Positions 30,931 through 40,129 of a DNA stretch of 64,000 nt are shown here, in pieces. The stretch lies in the NCBI RefSeq assembly GCF_004346035.1, contig NZ_SLZN01000008.1, positions 1 through 64,000 on the forward strand, read 5' to 3'. Source of the stretch: Acidomonas methanolica. Lineage in GTDB: Bacteria; Pseudomonadota; Alphaproteobacteria; Acetobacterales; Acetobacteraceae. A program made the position numbers and the translations under genes. Every line of letters starts with the position of its first letter. The stretch's first letter is position 1. The notes beneath the pieces are model-generated. The model did no database searches, was not told where the DNA came from, and worked only from the letters and a program-made list of their open reading frames with translations.

Positions 30931-32433
30931 ATGCTCGATGTCCAGATCAGACCGCGTCTTTCCCTTGAGGCCGAAGGCGGCGAGGCGCCCCTTTCACTCG
31001 CCTTGTTCGTGGGGCGCGGCTTCGAGAACGGCGAACCTTTGTTCGAGGCGCTCGACCGGCTTTCGGCCGGCGCGGTGCGCCGGGCGGTGATCCTGACCGG
31101 CTTCGAGGGAGATGCGGAGCAAAGCTGCGTGCTGCTGGCCCCCACGCCGTTCATCGAGCGTCTGGTGCTGATCGGATGCGGAGGCGCGGACGCGCCGGAA
31201 GCCGTGGCGCTGGAGGCCGCCGGGGCACTGGCGGCGCGGCTGCTCCGCAAGGCGGGCGAGGCGCATTTCCTGTTCGCCGCGGAGTTCGAAGGGCACGCCG
31301 CGCATGCGGCCTATGGCGCGGTGCTGGGGCAATACGCCTTCACCCCGTATCGCACGCAGAAACCCGCCGGGTCCACGCCGCTGCTGGCGATGGTGACGTT
31401 GCATGTGAACGACAAGAAGGCGGTGGAGGCGGACTGGACGGGGCTGGAAGCCGTCGCGCGCGGCGTGATGCGGACACGCGACCTCGTTTCCGAGCCGCCG
31501 AACGTGCTGACCCCGCCGGAATTCGCGCGACGCATTGAGGCGCTGCGCGATCTGGGGGTGGAGATCGAGAGTTTCGACGAGTCCGCGCTTCAGGACCTGG
31601 GTTTCGGCGCGATGCTCGGGGTGGCGCAGGGTAGCGAGGCGGGCGCGCGCCTCGTCGTGATGCGCTGGCGCGGCGGACGCGGCGACGGGGACGAGGCGCC
31701 GGCGGTGTTCGTCGGCAAGGGTGTCACTTTCGATTCCGGCGGGATTTCCATCAAGCCCGCGGGCGGCATGGAGGAGATGAAGACCGACATGGCGGGTGCC
31801 GCGGTGGTCGTGGGGCTGATGGAGACACTGGCCCGGCGCGGGGCGAAGGCGCATGTGGTCGGGCTCGTCGGTCTGGTCGAGAACATGCTCTCGGGCGGCG
31901 CGCAGCGGCCGGGCGACGTGGTGCGCTCCTATTCCGGCCAGACCATCGAGGTGCTGAACACCGATGCGGAGGGGCGGCTCGTGCTGGCGGACGTGCTGGC
32001 CTATGCCCGCGCGCGCTTCTCGCCCGCCTTCATGGTCGATCTCGCGACGCTGACCGGCGCGATCGTGGTCAGTCTCGGTCACGTGCGCGCGGGGTTGTTC
32101 AGCAATGACGACGCGCTCGCGGGGGAGATCTTCGCGCGGGGCGAGGCGGTGGGCGAGCCGGTCTGGCGGATGCCCATGGGCAAGCCCTACGACAAGCTCC
32201 TGCGTTCGGATATCGCGGATATGAAGAATATCGGCGGCCGGCCCGGCGGCTCGATCACGGCGGCGCAGTTCCTTGCCCGGTTCGTCGGCGAAACGCCCTG
32301 GGCGCATCTGGATATCGCAGGCGTCGCCTGGCGCGGCGACGCCGGACCGATCGGCCCCAAGGGGGCGACGGGGTTCGGCGTGCGTCTGCTCGACGCGCTG
32401 GTGCGCGAGCATGTGGAAGGGCGGGGGGCCTGA
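30931..32433 (+). CDS. pepA: Leucyl aminopeptidase (M17) PepA
   Basis: 500 residues, full length. The cytosolic dinuclear metal-dependent aminopeptidase is hexameric in the family. The catalytic domain shows VFVGKGVTFDSGGISIKPAGGMEEMKTDMAGAA near 262-294 (metal-binding Lys and Asp), then the M17 signature NTDAEGRLVLADVLAYAR near 346-363, and WRMPMGKPYDKLLRSDIADMKN. The N-terminal domain (about 1-160) is less conserved, as usual. It is adjacent to holC, the common pepA-holC pairing. A tandem repeat lies in the promoter. Confidence 0.95.
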   Translation: MLDVQIRPRLSLEAEGGEAPLSLALFVGRGFENGEPLFEALDRLSAGAVRRAVILTGFEGDAEQSCVLLAPTPFIERLVLIGCGGADAPEAVALEAAGALAARLLRKAGEAHFLFAAEFEGHAAHAAYGAVLGQYAFTPYRTQKPAGSTPLLAMVTLHVNDKKAVEADWTGLEAVARGVMRTRDLVSEPPNVLTPPEFARRIEALRDLGVEIESFDESALQDLGFGAMLGVAQGSEAGARLVVMRWRGGRGDGDEAPAVFVGKGVTFDSGGISIKPAGGMEEMKTDMAGAAVVVGLMETLARRGAKAHVVGLVGLVENMLSGGAQRPGDVVRSYSGQTIEVLNTDAEGRLVLADVLAYARARFSPAFMVDLATLTGAIVVSLGHVRAGLFSNDDALAGEIFARGEAVGEPVWRMPMGKPYDKLLRSDIADMKNIGGRPGGSITAAQFLARFVGETPWAHLDIAGVAWRGDAGPIGPKGATGFGVRLLDALVREHVEGRGA

Positions 32434-32437
32434 CCGT

Positions 32438-32899
32438 TTGAGCGAGATCGGCTTCTATCACCTCACGCGCAGCACGCTGGCGGAGGCGCTGCCCGCCCTG
32501 CTGGGCCGCACGCTCGACGCGGGGGAGCGGGCGGTCGTCCGCTGCCGGGACGGGGCGGAGGTCAAGACGCTGGATGACGCCCTGTGGCGCGCCAGGGAGC
32601 CGGTCTGGCTGCCGCATGGAAGCCGCGCCATGGGACACGGGCCGCGCCAGCCGATCTGGCTGACCGAGGGCGAGGACGTGCCGAACGGGGCGGCGTTCCT
32701 CTTCCTGCCGGATGGCGGGCCGGAGGCGGTCTGGGCGGCGGAGGCGCTGGGCGCGTTCCGCCGGGTGTTCGATCTGTTCGACGGCGGGGACGAAGCCGCC
32801 GTGGCGCGGGCGCGGGCGCGTTGGCGCGCGGCGAAGGCGGCGGGACACGGAATGGCCTATTGGCAGCAACAGCCGCGCGGCTGGAAACGGTCCGCATGA
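32438..32899 (+). CDS. holC: DNA polymerase III chi subunit, TTG start
   Basis: 153 residues. The chi subunit links the clamp loader to SSB at the replication fork. The family opening EIGFYHLTRSTLAEALPALLGRTLDAGERAVVRC is followed by VKTLDDALW and WLPHGS, and ends in FDLFDGGDEAAVARARARWRAAKAAGH. The start is TTG 32438, four bases after the pepA stop; no ATG or GTG gives the conserved N-terminus. A pepA-holC order is widespread in proteobacteria. Confidence 0.9.
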   Translation: MSEIGFYHLTRSTLAEALPALLGRTLDAGERAVVRCRDGAEVKTLDDALWRAREPVWLPHGSRAMGHGPRQPIWLTEGEDVPNGAAFLFLPDGGPEAVWAAEALGAFRRVFDLFDGGDEAAVARARARWRAAKAAGHGMAYWQQQPRGWKRSA

Positions 32900-32918
32900 G
32901 CGGGGGGCGGGAAGGGTC

Positions 32919-33743
32919 ATGACACCGGGGGAGATGGAGCAGGAAAGCCGGGAAGGGGCGGGGGATTCGCCGCCTCTTCCGCCAATCGCGAAGGTTGCGC
33001 CCGGGCCGGGAGGCGGCATGCCGTCGATGTGGACGATCATCGGCGCCTCGTTGCGCGATGCCTGGCGTCTGGCCGGGCAGGAAAAGGCGACCGTGGCGCT
33101 GTTGCTGACGCTGGAACTGCTTCTCGGCGGGGTGCCGCTTCTGGCCGGAAAGGGCGCGAAGGAGAGCGACCTGCCTTTCCTGACCGATATGCTGGCGCAA
33201 TTGCTGGCTCTGCCCTTCACGCTCCGCTTCTGCGCGGCGCTGCTGGGCATCGCGCGGGCGGACGCGCTGCCGCCTGCCGTCTGGGTGCGGCTGGCGGGGT
33301 GGGGGGCTTTCTGCGTCGTCCTGGGCATGCTGGAGAGCGTGGCCGCCTTGCCGGTACCGCTCCCGCGTCCGGTCACGGCGGCCATCGAACTGGGGGCGAT
33401 CTATTTCGCGCTGCGCCTGCTGCCGCTCTATCCCGCCATCATGAGCTGGCCCGACTGGCCGGGGATCGACCGTCTGTGGGCGGCTTCGCGGCGTTTCGTC
33501 ATGCCGCTGATCGGTTGCGCGGTCGCGGTCTACCTGCCCATTTTCCTCGTCATCATTCTCGTTCTCGCCGCGACGTCGGTGATCGGCCATGGCGGGGACG
33601 ATCCGGTTTTGACGACGGCGCGGCTGGAGCATCTCCTGGAGCCGCTTCTCCCCGTCATGACCGTGTTGACCGCGCTGCTGGCCACGGCGGCCACGCTGTT
33701 CGGCGCGGCGTTGAGGGTGCGGCTGTTCCGGCTGATCGCATGA
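32919..33743 (+). CDS. Hypothetical integral membrane protein
   Basis: 274 residues, start at ATG 32919 behind GGAAGGG. After about 45 soluble residues (acidic and Pro/Gly-rich), hydrophobic segments occur near 62-82, 95-115, 128-148, 155-175, 202-230 and 245-265. No motif known to me is present. It lies 19 bases after holC and may share its transcript. Possibly a DUF-type glycerophosphodiester or transport accessory protein, but this cannot be claimed from sequence. Confidence 0.7.
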   Translation: MTPGEMEQESREGAGDSPPLPPIAKVAPGPGGGMPSMWTIIGASLRDAWRLAGQEKATVALLLTLELLLGGVPLLAGKGAKESDLPFLTDMLAQLLALPFTLRFCAALLGIARADALPPAVWVRLAGWGAFCVVLGMLESVAALPVPLPRPVTAAIELGAIYFALRLLPLYPAIMSWPDWPGIDRLWAASRRFVMPLIGCAVAVYLPIFLVIILVLAATSVIGHGGDDPVLTTARLEHLLEPLLPVMTVLTALLATAATLFGAALRVRLFRLIA

Positions 33744-33806
33744 CGGGGCCGGGGCAGGAAAGGCCGTGAAGAAAAGGCCATGAAGATAAGATAGGGAGGG
33801 TGTGGA

Positions 33807-34658
33807 ATGCCGATGCGGAAGATCACGCTCAGGAATGGAACCGAACTGCCTGTCCTGGGCATGGGGACGTGGAATGTCGGCGACTGCACGGAACGCAGGG
33901 CGGAGGAGATCGCAAGCCTGCGGGCGGGAATCGAGGCCGGGCTGCGGGTGATCGACACGGCCGAGATGTATGGCGGCGGCCGCTCCGAAACGCTCGTCGG
34001 CGAGGCGATCGACGGCGTGCGCGAGGAGGTCTTCCTCGTCACCAAGGTGCTGCCGTCCAACGCCTCCTTCGAGGGGGTGCGGCGCGCCTGCCGGAACTCC
34101 CTGCAACGGCTGGGGACGGACTGGCTCGATCTCTACCTGCTCCACTGGCGCGGCGGCGTGCCTCTGGCCGAGACGGTGCGCGGGATGGAGAGCCTGCGGG
34201 CGGACGGCGTGATCCGCGACTGGGGTGTTTCGAATTTCGATGTCGATGACATGGAGGAGCTGGAGGAACTGGGCGGATTCTGCGCGGCGAACCAGATTCT
34301 CTACAATCTGGAATATCGCGGCGTGGAGTTCGACCTGCTGGACCGCGATCGCGTGGCGGGGGTGGTGAACATGGCCTATTCGCCGCTGGGTCAGGGCGGC
34401 GAATTGCTGCATCATCCGGTGCTCGACGGGATCGCGGCGCGGCATGAAACCTCGGCGGGAGCGGCGACGGCGGCGCAGATCGCGCTGGCGTGGGTGTTGC
34501 GGCGCGGCGATGTGCTGGCGATTCCCAAGGCGGGAACGATGTCCCATCTGCGCGAGAACCTGCTGGCGACCGAGCTGGAGCTGACGGAGTCCGATCTCGC
34601 CGCGCTGGACGGCGCCTTTCCGCCGCCCCGGCGCAAGACGCGTCTCGCTATGATCTGA
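33807..34658 (+). CDS. Aldo/keto reductase
   Basis: 283 residues, full-length AKR barrel. The cytosolic NAD(P)H-dependent enzyme reduces aldehydes and ketones. The catalytic tetrad is visible: Asp and Tyr in VIDTAEMYGGGRSE (about 50-63), Lys in FLVTKVLPSNASF (about 78), and His in DLYLLHWRGGVP (about 112). NAD(P)-binding residues sit in IPKAGTMSHLRENL near 238. AGGGAGGG lies ahead of the ATG. It is followed at 67 bases by the Hyf-like cluster on the same strand, with no obvious terminator between. Substrate unknown. Confidence 0.92.
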   Translation: MPMRKITLRNGTELPVLGMGTWNVGDCTERRAEEIASLRAGIEAGLRVIDTAEMYGGGRSETLVGEAIDGVREEVFLVTKVLPSNASFEGVRRACRNSLQRLGTDWLDLYLLHWRGGVPLAETVRGMESLRADGVIRDWGVSNFDVDDMEELEELGGFCAANQILYNLEYRGVEFDLLDRDRVAGVVNMAYSPLGQGGELLHHPVLDGIAARHETSAGAATAAQIALAWVLRRGDVLAIPKAGTMSHLRENLLATELELTESDLAALDGAFPPPRRKTRLAMI

Positions 34659-34725: not shown

Positions 34726-36138
34726 CTGTCCGCTCTCGTTCTCTTTCTGCTCCTTTGCGGCCTTCCCGCCCTGCGGTGGGCCGCGCTGTCCGTGCCGGTT
34801 CCGTTTTCCGATTCCGCCCGGCGCGGTGTCGGGCTGGCGCTTGCGAGTCTGCATCTGGCGGCGGTCTGCTGGGTCTCCGCGCACAGCGTCCGTCTCACTG
34901 CGGGCCCGCTGCATCTGGACCCGTTGCGCGATGCGTTGGACGCGGTGGTGGTGGCGGTCTCCTTCGCGGCGCGGGGGCCGGGTGCGGCGGCGCTCATGCT
35001 CGGCGCGGCGGGGCTGGTGCTGGACGGCGTGGCGGGGGCGACGCTGCTCGGACTGGCCGGGATGCTGGCGGGAGGAATGACGGGCGCCCAGGGTGGATGT
35101 CGGGTCGGATTTCTGGCCGGGGGGCTGGTGCTGCTCGTGACGGGCGCTGGCGGGTCGGCGGTGGTGTCCTGCCTGACGGGGCTGGTGCTGCTGGCGGCCT
35201 TCGCGGACGTGCCGGTGCTCGGGCTGGCGTTGCTGGCGACGCATGTCACGCCCGACCCGGCGGTCGGATGGCTGCTCGTCGCGGCGGGTCTGGCGGGGTG
35301 CTGCCCCATTGGGCAAGGGCGGTGGACCCTGGTGTCGCGGCGTGTGGTACTGCCGCTTTTCTGGCTGGCGGCGCTGCTCGGCGCGCGCCGGGCCGATCTG
35401 GCGGAGACGGCGCTGGCCGCCGCCGAGGCGTTGCTGCTGTCCATGGTGCTGTTGCCTGTGCCGGGAGTCGCGGAGGGGCGGGCGGGTATCCTGCTGCGAT
35501 CGGTTTTGCCCGGTGCGGCGGGGTTTCTGCCGCTCTGGCTGGGGCTGCACGCGTTCTTCGGACTCGCGGCGGCGGAGACGGGCTGGATCGTGCCCGCGCT
35601 GGCGCTGGGCGGGGTGATCGGCTGGATCGCGGTGCTGGAGCTGCGGGCCTGTTGGCGCAGGCTGGGGGAAGCGGGGCTTGATCGAGTCGAAGACTATGTG
35701 CTGCCGGGGCTGGCGGCGGTCGCGCCGGGGCTGGTCTTCATGATCGTCGCCCCGGGTCTCGCGGCGATGTGCGGGGCGGCGGAGGCATGGTCCGGCTCGC
35801 TCTTCGCGCCGGTGCCGGGCGGGGATGGCGGGCGCTGGCTGCCCTGGCTCGCCGCGTTGCTTCTGGCGTCTGTGGTCCTGGCGGCAGGGCCGGGCGGGCG
35901 GATGACGCGCGATCCGTTCGAGGAGCCGGGCGCGCGGCCGGGCGCGGCGGTCTGGGCCTATGGCTGGCGCAGGCGGGCGGTACTCTTCCGTCGGGCCGGA
36001 CGGCGCTGGGGGGAGTCCCTCGCGAAGGCGGCTGACATGAAAAACGGCCTCGGGCTGGCGCTCAAGGCACCGCTATCGCCCGCCTTCTGGCTGGGGCTTG
36101 TGGCGTTCGGCCTGGCGGTGCTGGGAGCCGCCGCGTGA
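34726..36138 (+). CDS. HyfB-like antiporter-type membrane subunit of an Ehr-like complex (divergent, short)
   Basis: 470 residues if CTG 34726 is the start (AAGGGG six bases ahead), or 448 from GTG 34792. The CTG start adds a first membrane helix, LSALVLFLLLCGLPALRWAA, as expected for this family. At least ten hydrophobic segments are seen. Position in the operon (before NuoH-, NuoK- and NuoCD-like genes) and fold suggest an MrpA/NuoL-type subunit like HyfB. It is far shorter than the roughly 670-residue HyfB, and the usual TM7 region with Lys and PFHxWLPxA is not recognisable. Assignment rests mainly on synteny. Its stop overlaps the next gene (GTGA). Confidence 0.6.
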   Translation: MSALVLFLLLCGLPALRWAALSVPVPFSDSARRGVGLALASLHLAAVCWVSAHSVRLTAGPLHLDPLRDALDAVVVAVSFAARGPGAAALMLGAAGLVLDGVAGATLLGLAGMLAGGMTGAQGGCRVGFLAGGLVLLVTGAGGSAVVSCLTGLVLLAAFADVPVLGLALLATHVTPDPAVGWLLVAAGLAGCCPIGQGRWTLVSRRVVLPLFWLAALLGARRADLAETALAAAEALLLSMVLLPVPGVAEGRAGILLRSVLPGAAGFLPLWLGLHAFFGLAAAETGWIVPALALGGVIGWIAVLELRACWRRLGEAGLDRVEDYVLPGLAAVAPGLVFMIVAPGLAAMCGAAEAWSGSLFAPVPGGDGGRWLPWLAALLLASVVLAAGPGGRMTRDPFEEPGARPGAAVWAYGWRRRAVLFRRAGRRWGESLAKAADMKNGLGLALKAPLSPAFWLGLVAFGLAVLGAAA

Positions 36139-37034
36139 CCGCGGTCTTCGAAGGGGCGAGCGAGGCGCTGCTCTGGCTGATCCAGATGGCGATCGTCCTG
36201 CTCGTCGCGCCGCTGTTGGTCGATTTCGGCGCGATGATCCGCGCCTGGCTGGACGGGCGACGCGCCGGGCGCTGGGGCGCGCGCTGGCGGCTTCTGCTGG
36301 CCGGATGGCAGGCCGGGGGCGCGGTGGGGGTGGAGGCGCGGCTGGCGCTGGGCTTTGCCGTCGCGGCGCTGGCCGTGCTGCCGATTGCGACGTTCTGGAC
36401 GTTTTTCCCGGTTCTGGCCGATCCGCTGGCGGTCGGCCTGCTGCTGCTGGCCAGCCGGGCGGCGCTGTGGAGGTTCGCGGCTTCGGCGGGCGCGCCAGTG
36501 TGGCGGCGGGACGGGGCGGCGCTGCGGTTCGTGCGGGGTGAGGCGTGGCGGCTGGGCGCGCTGGCGTTGATACTCGTGCTGGTGAGCGCGCTGATCGCCA
36601 TCGCCTTGCCCGGCGCGAACGGGCTGGCGGGGCTGACGCGGAATTTGCGGATCGACGCGGCGCCGTCCCTGGCGGGCGGGCTGGTCTTCATGGCGCTGGC
36701 GATGCTGGCGATCGCGGCCCCCCTGCTCGATACCGGAGCATGCGAGGCGCTGTTTCCCCGCGCCGGAGGACGGGAGCGGGCCGTGCTGCGGCTGGCGCTC
36801 GATCTCGGGGCGTGCGGATGGTACGTCCTGCTGGCCGATCTGGCCATGCCGGGGCTGGTGGCGGGAGAGGGCTGGCGCGGGCAGCATCTGCTGGACTGGG
36901 CGGCGATGCCCGTCCGTTTGGCGTTGATGGCCGGGCTGGGCGCGTTGTTCGACTCATGGCGCAGGCCGGGCGTGGCGGTCATGCTGGCGGCGGCGGGCGT
37001 GGCGCTGGTGCTGGCGGGGAGACTCGGGGCATGA
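36135..37034 (+). CDS. HyfC/NuoH-like membrane subunit (divergent)
   Basis: 299 residues, about the length of HyfC/HycD, with eight hydrophobic segments. The GTG start overlaps the previous stop. The first helix and loop resemble a worn NuoH N-terminus: PLLVDFGAMIRAWLDGRRAG stands where family members have the quinone-site sequence with GRxGP. The fifth-sixth helix loop, normally ETGRxPVDNP in HycD, reads LDTGACEALFPRAGG. NuoH-type subunits join the peripheral arm to the membrane arm, so the loss of the acidic loop is notable. No other family fits better. Confidence 0.65.
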   Translation: MTAVFEGASEALLWLIQMAIVLLVAPLLVDFGAMIRAWLDGRRAGRWGARWRLLLAGWQAGGAVGVEARLALGFAVAALAVLPIATFWTFFPVLADPLAVGLLLLASRAALWRFAASAGAPVWRRDGAALRFVRGEAWRLGALALILVLVSALIAIALPGANGLAGLTRNLRIDAAPSLAGGLVFMALAMLAIAAPLLDTGACEALFPRAGGRERAVLRLALDLGACGWYVLLADLAMPGLVAGEGWRGQHLLDWAAMPVRLALMAGLGALFDSWRRPGVAVMLAAAGVALVLAGRLGA

Positions 37035-37579
37035 CAATGCTGTTCGGGCTGTTCTTCCTGCTGGCGTTGGCCTCGATCGGGCGGGACGGGCGCGTTCTGC
37101 CCGTGCAGGGTGTGCTTGCGGCGGGATGCGTGGCCGTGGCGGCGCGCGGAGACGTCGCGATCGCGGCGGCGCTGGCGGCGCTGGCGACGAATGGCGCGGC
37201 CTGGGCGGGATTGCGGCGGCTCGCGCCCCATGAACCGGGGGGGCGCGGCCTTCCGCAACCGGCGCTGATCGGGATTCTGGGCGGCATGGTGCTGGTGCTG
37301 CTGTTGCTGCTCGCTCTGGCCGCGCCGTCGGACCTGCCCGTGCTGATGGCGGCGGGGGTGGTGCTGCTCGGACTGTGCGGCGCGGCGCAACCGGCGCCTC
37401 TGGTGCAGTTCGTCGGATTGCTCGGGGCGGTGAACGGGCTGATCGTCCTGGCCGGGGTGCTGGGCAACGGCATGCTGCTGCTGGCGGCGCTGCTGGTCTG
37501 GGCGGCGCTGGGCGTTCTGGGCGTCTGGCTGCTGCCGCGTCTGGCGTGGTTGCGCGTGGATCTCCCCGATGAGGGGTGA
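37031..37579 (+). CDS. HyfE/NuoK-like small membrane subunit (divergent)
   Basis: 182 residues, somewhat shorter than HyfE (about 216). ATG overlaps the HyfC-like stop (ATGA). Six hydrophobic segments are seen. The most diagnostic part is PLVQFVGLLGAVNGLIVLAGVLGNGMLLL near 125-153, matching the HyfE segment with GYLxxENGxxL. Here the conserved Glu of ENG is Val (AVNG), so a residue thought to take part in proton movement is absent. The neighbours support membership of the same complex. The C-terminus ends LPRLAWLRVDLPDEG. Confidence 0.65.
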   Translation: MTMLFGLFFLLALASIGRDGRVLPVQGVLAAGCVAVAARGDVAIAAALAALATNGAAWAGLRRLAPHEPGGRGLPQPALIGILGGMVLVLLLLLALAAPSDLPVLMAAGVVLLGLCGAAQPAPLVQFVGLLGAVNGLIVLAGVLGNGMLLLAALLVWAALGVLGVWLLPRLAWLRVDLPDEG

Positions 37580-38696
37580 GGCACTGCTGGCGGGGGGAGG
37601 AAGCCTCGTTCTGGCGCTGCTGCCGTGCTGGCCCCTGCTCGCGGCGTGTCTGCTGGCTTTGACGGGGCGGGGGCAGCGCGCGGCGGCGGCGCTGTTCCTG
37701 GCGGGCACGGGGCTGGCGGGCACGATCCTGCTGACGCCTTTTCTGCCCGGACAGGATGCGTTGTCCGACGTCGTGCGCGTGCTGGCGGCGGGAATGCCTC
37801 TGCTGCTCTGGCGCAGGGAGGCGGCGGAGCGGCTTTCGGGGGTGGTGGTGTTCCTGACGGCGTTCTGCGTCATGCTCGCGGTGGGGCTCAGGGCGATGTT
37901 GCCGGTGGTGGCGTTGCTGGCGCTGGCCTCCGTTCTGCCCGCGTTGCATGAGGCGGCGGGAGCCCCTCGCGCGCGACAGGCCTGGGAAAAGGCGCGTCTG
38001 CGCGCCATGGGCGCCGTGCTGGCGCTGCTTGGCGCGGCGCTGGCGGTTTCGCCGGGCGGGGTGGGGACCACCGGGCGGGCCGGGATGTTGCTTCTGGCCG
38101 TGGGGCTTTGTCTGCTGGCGGGGCTCGGGCAGGCGGCGTTTGAAGCTCCGGGGGTCGATAGGGGGCTCGACGGATTGCCGCGTCTCGGGGCTCTGGCGCT
38201 GATGTTGCGCCTGCCGCCCCATGAGGTGATTCATCTGGTGTTTCTCGTGGCTGGTCTGGTGGCGCTCGCCCTTGCCGTGTTGCGGCGGGAGAGCGGGACG
38301 GCGGCGCTCGTGACGCTTTGCGCGGCCGTGGGCGTATCGGGGAACGGGGTGCTGGTGGCGGCCCTGCTGCTCCTGACTCTGGGCGTGGCGCTGGAGTGCG
38401 GGCGGATCAGCGAAGGGGAGCGGCGCTGGATGGCGGCGGCGGTGCCCCCGTCTCCTGCTTTTCCTGCCGCCGCGCTGCTGGTCGGGCCCTTGCTGGAGAT
38501 GGACAGGCTGGCGGGGGGAGTCGTGTTGCTGATGGTGGTGGCGCAGGCGGCGCGGCTCCGGCCGGCATGGGTGGAACGGGCGGGACCGGCCTTCTGGCTT
38601 CTGGCGGCGCTGGGCGTGGGTGCGGCGGTGACCTTGGCCTGTGGCGCGCCGGGAAACTGGCCGTGGAGCGGGGGGCTGGCATGGCGGGCGGCGTGA
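37569..38696 (+). CDS. HyfF-like antiporter-type membrane subunit (divergent, short)
   Basis: 375 residues against about 526 in HyfF. The start ATG overlaps the HyfE-like end by 11 bases. About ten membrane segments are seen. Faint matches to the antiporter-like fold are AWEKARLRAMGAVLALLGAAL (where members have a W-K/Y-Y helix) and LLLAVGLCLLAGLGQAAFEAPG, where the family has GxGTKxGLxPxHxWLPDA. The TM7 Lys is therefore replaced within GLGQAA. Very Ala/Leu/Gly-rich. Identification depends on position in the operon. Confidence 0.6.
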   Translation: MRGEALLAGGGSLVLALLPCWPLLAACLLALTGRGQRAAAALFLAGTGLAGTILLTPFLPGQDALSDVVRVLAAGMPLLLWRREAAERLSGVVVFLTAFCVMLAVGLRAMLPVVALLALASVLPALHEAAGAPRARQAWEKARLRAMGAVLALLGAALAVSPGGVGTTGRAGMLLLAVGLCLLAGLGQAAFEAPGVDRGLDGLPRLGALALMLRLPPHEVIHLVFLVAGLVALALAVLRRESGTAALVTLCAAVGVSGNGVLVAALLLLTLGVALECGRISEGERRWMAAAVPPSPAFPAAALLVGPLLEMDRLAGGVVLLMVVAQAARLRPAWVERAGPAFWLLAALGVGAAVTLACGAPGNWPWSGGLAWRAA

Positions 38697-40129
38697 GCAT
38701 GGCGGCGGCGATCCGGGCCGGGGAGCGTATCGCGCCGGGGCCTTTTCCGCCCGAAAGTTTTGTGCTCGATGAGCGGCAATGGGAGGCGATGGTCGAGGCG
38801 GCCGTCGCCGATCCGCTCTGGTTCATCGGCCATTGGTGCGAGGCCGGGCGCGCCTATGCGCTGTTTCTCGATCGCGAGCGCCCGCTGATGGCCGGCACGG
38901 CGTTGGTGGACGGGCGTTATCTCGCCCTGTCGCGGGCGCTTCCCGCCGCGTGCTGGGCGGAACGGGCGGCGCAGGATCTCTGCGACGCGCGGCCGATGTT
39001 CGCGCGGGAGGTCGCGCCCTTGCTGGATGAAGGCGGGTGGCTGCGCGCCACGCCGCTTTCTCCCCGGCCTGGTCCGGGGCAGGCGGCGCGGGAGGCGTCG
39101 CCCGAGGCGGAGCCGCTCGGCATGGGGTTCGGCGCGGCGGCGGCGTTGCTGACGCCGGTGCTGGCGGACGGGCGGCTGGAGATGCGGCCCTCCCATGCGC
39201 ATCGGGGGTTTCTGGCCCGATTGCGCGGGATGCGGGTGGAAGAGGCGCTGGCGCCGGTCGGGCGGGTTCATGCGGGCGGGTTCGTCGCGCATCCGCTGGC
39301 CTATTGCCGGGCGGTGGAGCAGGCGCTGGGAGCGGTCGTGCCGCCGGACGGGCGGGATGGGCGGATCGTTCTGGCGGAGATCGAGCGGATCGGCGTGCAT
39401 CTGGCCGATCTCGCGGCGAGCGGCCGCGCCGCCGGGGGCGGTCTGCTGGCGACTCATGCCGTACTGGCGCGTCAGGCTCTGGCGGAGTTGTGCGTCACGC
39501 ATGGGGCGACGCGTCGCCTGACGGATGCGATCGCGCCGGACGGGGTGGCCGAGGGCATTGCCGCGCCCGAACTCGGCGCGGCGGCGGCGGCGCTGATGGA
39601 GGAGCGGCTTCCCGACCTGACCGAAGCGCATCGGCTTTTCGCGGAACGTTTGCGCGGCGTGGCGGTGCTGGGGCGCGGGCTGGTCGAGCGGTTCTGCATC
39701 GGCGGGCTGGCGGGCCGCGCGACGGGGCGGTCCTTCGATCTGCGGCAACAGGAGGAGGACCATCGGCACATGCCGGGGCGCGCGGGTTCGCTCGTCGAGG
39801 GGGACGCGCTGGCGAGAGGCACGCTGCGGCTGCGCGAGATCCGGGATTCGGCGCTGCGGATCGCGCGCGTGGCCGAGCATTTCGGGGAAGGCGGTGTGCC
39901 GCCCGTCGGCGCGCATGGCGGGGAGGGCATCGGAGCGGCGGAAGGGCCGCGCGGCGATGTCTGGTATTGGGTGCGGGTGAAGGACGGGCGGATCGAGGCA
40001 ATCTGGGTGCGGGACCCGGCCTTCAGCCTCGGCCCCGCGCTGGGCGCGGTGTTGCGGCGGGACGATGCGGCGCGCTGGCCGCTCGCGCTGGCCTCGCTGG
40101 GTGTCCCGGCGGCGGGAATGGCGCTTTGA
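38681..40129 (+). CDS. HyfG/NuoCD-like large subunit lacking Ni-Fe cysteines
   Basis: About 482 residues (ATG 38681; GTG 38693 or ATG 38699 also fit). Residues about 15-125 resemble the NuoC-type domain (ACWAERAAQDLCDARPMF). The rest is NuoD-like: MRPSHAHRGFLARLRGM, GRVHAGGFVAHPLAYCRAVE, RIVLAEIERIGVHLADLA, and AGRATGRSFDLRQQ. In NiFe hydrogenases the segment aligned with GRVHAGG carries RxCGxC, and a second CxxC lies near the C-terminus; neither is present. Thus it cannot bind the Ni-Fe centre, as in Ehr complexes and complex I. No NuoB-like partner is encoded beside it. Soluble protein expected on the cytosolic face. Confidence 0.75.
   Translation: MAGGVSMAAAIRAGERIAPGPFPPESFVLDERQWEAMVEAAVADPLWFIGHWCEAGRAYALFLDRERPLMAGTALVDGRYLALSRALPAACWAERAAQDLCDARPMFAREVAPLLDEGGWLRATPLSPRPGPGQAAREASPEAEPLGMGFGAAAALLTPVLADGRLEMRPSHAHRGFLARLRGMRVEEALAPVGRVHAGGFVAHPLAYCRAVEQALGAVVPPDGRDGRIVLAEIERIGVHLADLAASGRAAGGGLLATHAVLARQALAELCVTHGATRRLTDAIAPDGVAEGIAAPELGAAAAALMEERLPDLTEAHRLFAERLRGVAVLGRGLVERFCIGGLAGRATGRSFDLRQQEEDHRHMPGRAGSLVEGDALARGTLRLREIRDSALRIARVAEHFGEGGVPPVGAHGGEGIGAAEGPRGDVWYWVRVKDGRIEAIWVRDPAFSLGPALGAVLRRDDAARWPLALASLGVPAAGMAL

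Follow-up and report, generated by a model that had tools for sequence, protein, structure and literature searches.

A probable six-subunit Ehr complex of Acidomonas methanolica and related acetic acid bacteria, with nearly all conserved membrane charges lost and its small-subunit gene on another contig

How a gene set laid out like a Hyf operon might work when its large subunit has no nickel ligands and no iron-sulfur subunit is encoded beside it is the question raised by the window, by which we mean the whole stretch of 64,000 nucleotides analysed here from the 3.68 Mb genome of Acidomonas methanolica, a member of the acetic acid bacteria family. An earlier note, made from the sequence, had described five overlapping genes in the order of Hyf operons, and this arrangement was borne out: five open reading frames (ORFs) on the forward strand at 34726-40129, overlapping by 4-11 bp, read as HyfB-, HyfC-, HyfE-, HyfF- and HyfG-like. 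The Hyf gene order is B-C-E-F-G-I, as in the operons of energy-converting-hydrogenase-related (Ehr) complexes considered here. The five genes, and a probable sixth found elsewhere in the same genome, are as follows.

34726..36138, + strand: compact HyfB/NuoL-like membrane subunit, putative, 470 aa from CTG 34726 or 448 aa from GTG 34792
36135..37034, + strand: compact HyfC/NuoH-like membrane subunit (iterated profile)
37031..37579, + strand: HyfE/NuoK-like membrane subunit (iterated profile)
37569..38696, + strand: compact HyfF/NuoN-like antiporter-fold subunit, 375 aa (AlphaFold, Foldseek, hhalign)
38693..40129, + strand: HyfG/HycE-like large subunit, a NuoC+NuoD fusion (Pfam PF00346, HycE profile match)
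G000:C4:169561-170049, outside the window: HycG/NuoB-like small subunit, 164 aa, probable sixth subunit (PF01058 genome search)

HyfG was the sole ORF of the five to be recognised from its single sequence by Pfam and NCBIfam. It matches Complex1_49kDa (PF00346) at 8.8e-9, as an Ehr large subunit should, it also scores against NCBIfam NuoD models, and its family profile matches HycE of E. coli FHL at 1.5e-50; its nearest relatives are those of Brytella acorum and of one further sampled genome, G025. The two NiFe-binding Cys-pair motifs of group 4 [NiFe] hydrogenases are absent from it, as the note had stated: the protein reads RVHAGGF at RxCGxC position 1 and SLGVPAAGMAL at its C-terminus, RxCGxC was found in 0 of 27 aligned HyfG rows, and the window HyfG has no C-terminal CxxC either. 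One canonical relative (L050) carries CSC at the C-terminal Ni-motif position, the Ni motifs being otherwise absent in the canonical set, and judged from these motifs every large subunit examined is of the Ehr type. The N-terminal EPGHF hairpin of HyfG is deleted, with loss of the segment GPIHAGIIEPGHFRF, and the segment corresponding to the N-terminal hairpin (quinone site) of NuoD in complex I is thus missing.

As single sequences, the four membrane ORFs gave no credible match to Pfam or NCBIfam, and their identity therefore rests on orthologs, through family alignments, hhalign and AlphaFold. A scan of named genomes gave nothing with a single-sequence query; the full alignment was too diverse, and a closer alignment produced matches. 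Iterated profiles link the HyfC and HyfE families to their canonical members, and canonical HyfC matches NADHdh at 7.5e-32. HyfF, shortened to 375 aa versus about 470-490 in canonical proteins, aligns weakly with canonical HyfF (hhalign E 1.9e-4, probability 47), and its AlphaFold model (pLDDT 85.8, pTM 0.83, about 14 helices) matches E. coli NuoN in Foldseek with TM 0.71 and prob 1.0, the lowest E among all matches being 6.1e-5. In HyfB, translation could begin at CTG 34726, which has AAGGGG upstream, the first standard start being GTG 34792; either way the protein is short, at 470 or 448 aa versus at least about 610 aa in canonical relatives. Its AlphaFold pLDDT is 72, its hhalign match to canonical HyfB is weak (E 0.005), and its best Foldseek matches are to Mrp, complex I and FHL HycC (7z0t_C, TM 0.55, E 0.016), so that with weak sequence homology the name HyfB, drawn from gene position and a weaker fold match, is a putative one. 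The NuoH-like and antiporter-like membrane subunits of an Ehr complex are in this sense represented, by profile for HyfC and HyfE, by fold and weak profile for HyfF, and by position and fold for HyfB.

The earlier note had further held that no HyfI/NuoB-like small subunit was encoded nearby, and had described the complex as one without iron-sulfur subunits, either minimal or repurposed, or in decay. The first of these statements holds for the surroundings of the operon but not for the genome, in which a search with PF01058 returned two proteins, one NuoB-like on contig C17 and one of 164 aa at C4:169561-170049; the lack of iron-sulfur subunits and the minimal reading are not supported, since the latter is a HycG/NuoB-type protein with four invariant cysteines and brings the set to six genes. 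The protein on C17 scores as ordinary NuoB and is found alongside complex I antiporter genes, C17 being the contig of the genome's three Proton_antipo_M proteins. The protein on C4, whose gene adjoins rplU, scores against NuoB models too, and its family profile finds its best match in HycG, subunit 7 of E. coli FHL (4.3e-37). Small-subunit matches were obtained in 32 of 32 relatives searched, in most of them directly 3' of hyfG, and all 28 small-subunit sequences compared share the same four Cys, the first pair spaced CxxC; a small subunit with [4Fe-4S] ligands, as in Ehr complexes, is thus encoded, its gene lying on another contig. The unlinked NuoB-like partner that the note had proposed to seek genome-wide therefore exists, but the set to which it would belong is not a normal Ehr set, its membrane charges having been lost.

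In Asaia, Swaminathania and two further genomes (G022, G045) the small-subunit gene occupies a common alternative site without the flanks of the window-genome copy, and these different flanks imply at least two separate departures from the operon. By contig coordinates, about 1.9 Mb separate it from hyfG on a 3.2 Mb contig of G148; in G025 and Brytella the gap is about 1 kb and holds an opposite-strand NUDIX gene. In G025 (L036, 9311-11508) and at the matching place in Brytella (L037), the small subunit is flanked by this NUDIX gene and a gene for an NrtR-type winged-helix protein. Distances of the small and large subunits across 33 genomes correlate with r 0.83, the maximum of 500 permutations being 0.25, a correlation that shared vertical descent also yields. 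Operon and C4 gene probably encode, as part of the best explanation given below, a six-subunit Ehr complex, with which the relocated small subunit would co-assemble.

What is unusual about this set is its membrane arm, a feature that the note does not mention. At the 80% level, conserved charged columns number 22 in canonical HyfF (7 sequences) versus 2, both Arg, in compact HyfF (25 sequences), and 51 in canonical HyfB (5 sequences) versus 4 in compact HyfB (20 orthologs), the canonical counts being inflated by a smaller and less diverse set that is not diversity-matched. No Glu, Asp, Lys or His column is conserved at this level in compact HyfF, and five compact HyfF proteins contain no Lys whatever; compact HyfB has no conserved Lys column and only 2 acidic ones, and it aligns too poorly for the positions of its TM5 and TM7 residues to be located. 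The specific residue losses are clearer than these unmatched counts. The TM7 Lys position of HyfF is uncharged in 25 of 25 sequences (canonical GYGTKAALAP versus GLCLLAGLGQ) and the TM5 Glu is also lost, so that the conserved TM5 Glu and TM7/TM8 Lys of antiporter-like subunits (NuoL/M/N) are missing; GLCLLAGLGQAA of HyfF is aligned to canonical GYGTKAALAPLH. HyfC lacks most of its glutamate-rich loop (the TM5-TM6 loop region of NuoH), canonical NARVPVDNPATHLELTMVHEAMTLEYSG corresponding to LL------------DTGACEALFPRAGG, and the conserved Glu of ENGL in HyfE is given as Asn by the alignment and motif read-out (ENGL to VNGL in that sense). E. coli NuoM cannot do without E144, K234 and K265, and E138 and E203 of HycD matter for FHL activity (PMC5061711); HycC of a working FHL is likewise without the TM7 Lys (PMC5061711), and a single lost residue therefore proves little. 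Here nearly all conserved membrane charges are lost across a clade comprising Asaia, Gluconobacter, Bombella, Saccharibacter, Brytella and the window genome, while many invariant charged or ligand residues are kept in the large and small subunits of the same organisms. The loss is graded: in three genomes (G122, G041, G173) HyfF is compact and HyfB canonical-like. Separately, a canonical full-length Ehr operon (L054, G075) has HyfC and HyfE glutamates already altered (NRAALAETGMVHAALAL, LSGL), hinting at a parallel loss.

Like previously described Ehr complexes (PMC6349859; PMC10284858), the set pairs a group-4-hydrogenase-like large subunit without Ni ligands with a one-cluster small subunit and has NuoH-, NuoK- and antiporter-like membrane subunits; unlike them, it has lost the conserved membrane-arm charges and the large-subunit N-terminal hairpin, and its small-subunit gene is relocated here and in the Asaia group. 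The nearest solved relatives are in E. coli FHL/hydrogenase-4 (HycCDEG, HyfBCEFGI), as the HycG and HycE profile matches indicate, from which the operon differs by lacking a NiFe site and subunits for ferredoxin and formate dehydrogenase, and in its compact HyfB and HyfF. With complex I (Nuo) it has the core folds NuoB, NuoCD, NuoH, NuoK and NuoN in common, whereas no NADH module belongs to the Ehr operon, no NADH-oxidising module genes surround it, and complex I itself is separate in the Acidomonas genome (contig C17), while searches of several relatives in which the Ehr set is kept did not find complex I. The note was right that no ferredoxin subunit is encoded near the operon, but none is seen in a canonical operon (L053) either, so that its absence is not necessarily a loss peculiar to the Acidomonas genome; full-length operons such as that of G010 read B-C-E-F-G-S, show no ferredoxin subunit and have a HyfF that matches Proton_antipo_M at 1.6e-42.

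The location is conserved on its upstream side, where it is marked by pepA, holC and aldo/keto reductase genes (30931-34658), and in many relatives pssA-psd, which we take to be phospholipid genes, lie downstream. An obligatory functional link to the aldo/keto reductase was rejected, as that gene was not found adjoining the operon in Bombella, Saccharibacter and others, and so was pssA-psd adjacency as a functional link, which looks like fixed synteny. A predicted membrane protein encoded upstream of the aldo/keto reductase gene (32712-33743), similar in Brytella, G025 and G022, has no Pfam match. Promoter and terminator scans remained at chance level.

Among 200 sampled family genomes, 178 gave a HyfG match, some of which may be other NuoD-like proteins at the threshold used, and compact HyfB orthologs occur in 21 of the 200, in 12 of 102 genera. 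The Ehr small subunit is the sole PF01058 protein in 11 genomes keeping the set. G. oxydans, Bombella and Saccharibacter likewise keep it and have no second PF01058 protein, which means that a complex I small subunit was not found in those genomes; nine of the genomes searched have no Proton_antipo_M proteins.

Two readings would deprive the locus of an intact complex. The stepwise shrinkage of membrane subunits across the family, together with split or shortened frames on some Asaia draft contigs (L108, L113; sequencing error or true breakage), could be taken for an operon in decay, which is highly improbable given that pairwise dN/dS has medians of 0.07-0.26 in Gluconobacter, Asaia and Bombella, frames stay open in 20 compact genomes, 2 Mb symbiont-type genomes among these, and the small subunit has been retained through two relocations. 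These dN/dS values come from relatives, the family sample having yielded no further genome of the genus to which the window belongs, and in Asaia they are drawn from 1-4 unsaturated pairs per gene, the small subunit having no value there; being well below 1, they agree with the earlier note, which had suggested dN/dS across Acetobacteraceae orthologs as a check, had named a repurposed Ehr complex among its readings and had argued against simple decay. It is just as improbable that five subunits form a complex without any iron-sulfur subunit and that the distant PF01058 protein serves something else: that protein is indeed unlinked to the operon in this genome, but it is an ortholog of the in-operon small subunit of relatives, its divergence tracks that of HyfG, and the genome's other PF01058 protein is the ordinary NuoB found with the complex I antiporter genes.

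The reading that we favour, and consider probable, is a conserved, membrane-anchored redox variant of Ehr that makes no use of the known pumping route. The six subunits would assemble into one complex, in which the membrane arm may serve as anchor and scaffold, with no ion pumping by the complex-I route; the small subunit would supply the ligands for one [4Fe-4S] cluster, and the large subunit and this cluster may transfer electrons between a soluble partner and the site occupied by NiFe in hydrogenases or by quinone in complex I. For E. coli FHL there is no evidence of proton translocation and the membrane subunits are still required (PMC5061711), and by analogy it is the closest precedent for a membrane arm of this kind. 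A non-catalytic function, either regulatory, with the cluster as a redox sensor, or structural, with the assembly as a scaffold for some other membrane process, is unlikely; it would suit the loss of the hairpin at the active-site region, an operon with no electron-input subunit and the pssA-psd genes next to it in many relatives, but none of the four cluster ligands has been lost, the large subunit still holds many invariant polar residues, and the neighbours vary in a manner that resembles fixed synteny rather than function. Slightly more doubtful still is redox-driven ion translocation by an unconventional route (backbone, water wires or non-conserved charges). Redox-ion coupling is only suspected for Ehr complexes in general (PMC6349859), and the retained antiporter fold of HyfF and the selection on these genes in relatives are in keeping with it; against it stand a compact HyfF without any conserved Glu, Asp, Lys or His column at the 80% level, and in some cases without Lys in the whole protein, and a HyfC whose glutamate loop is mostly gone.

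None of the papers found in our literature search describes this complex in acetic acid bacteria, and hydrogenase-type subunits go unmentioned in the main texts of the G. oxydans knockout and RNAseq studies. The Ehr set is nevertheless conserved in tractable acetic acid bacteria, G. oxydans included, where no PF01058 protein other than the small subunit was found, and the existence of a knockout collection for Gluconobacter oxydans (PMC8602642) thus makes a clean genetic test of Ehr function possible. There is perhaps an even chance that these organisms hold a member of the complex I/hydrogenase superfamily that has kept the membrane-arm fold as an anchor, has discarded the known proton path and is selected for a redox task, also where complex I has been lost; if the membrane arm is truly non-pumping, its scaffold role would be separable from its pumping role.
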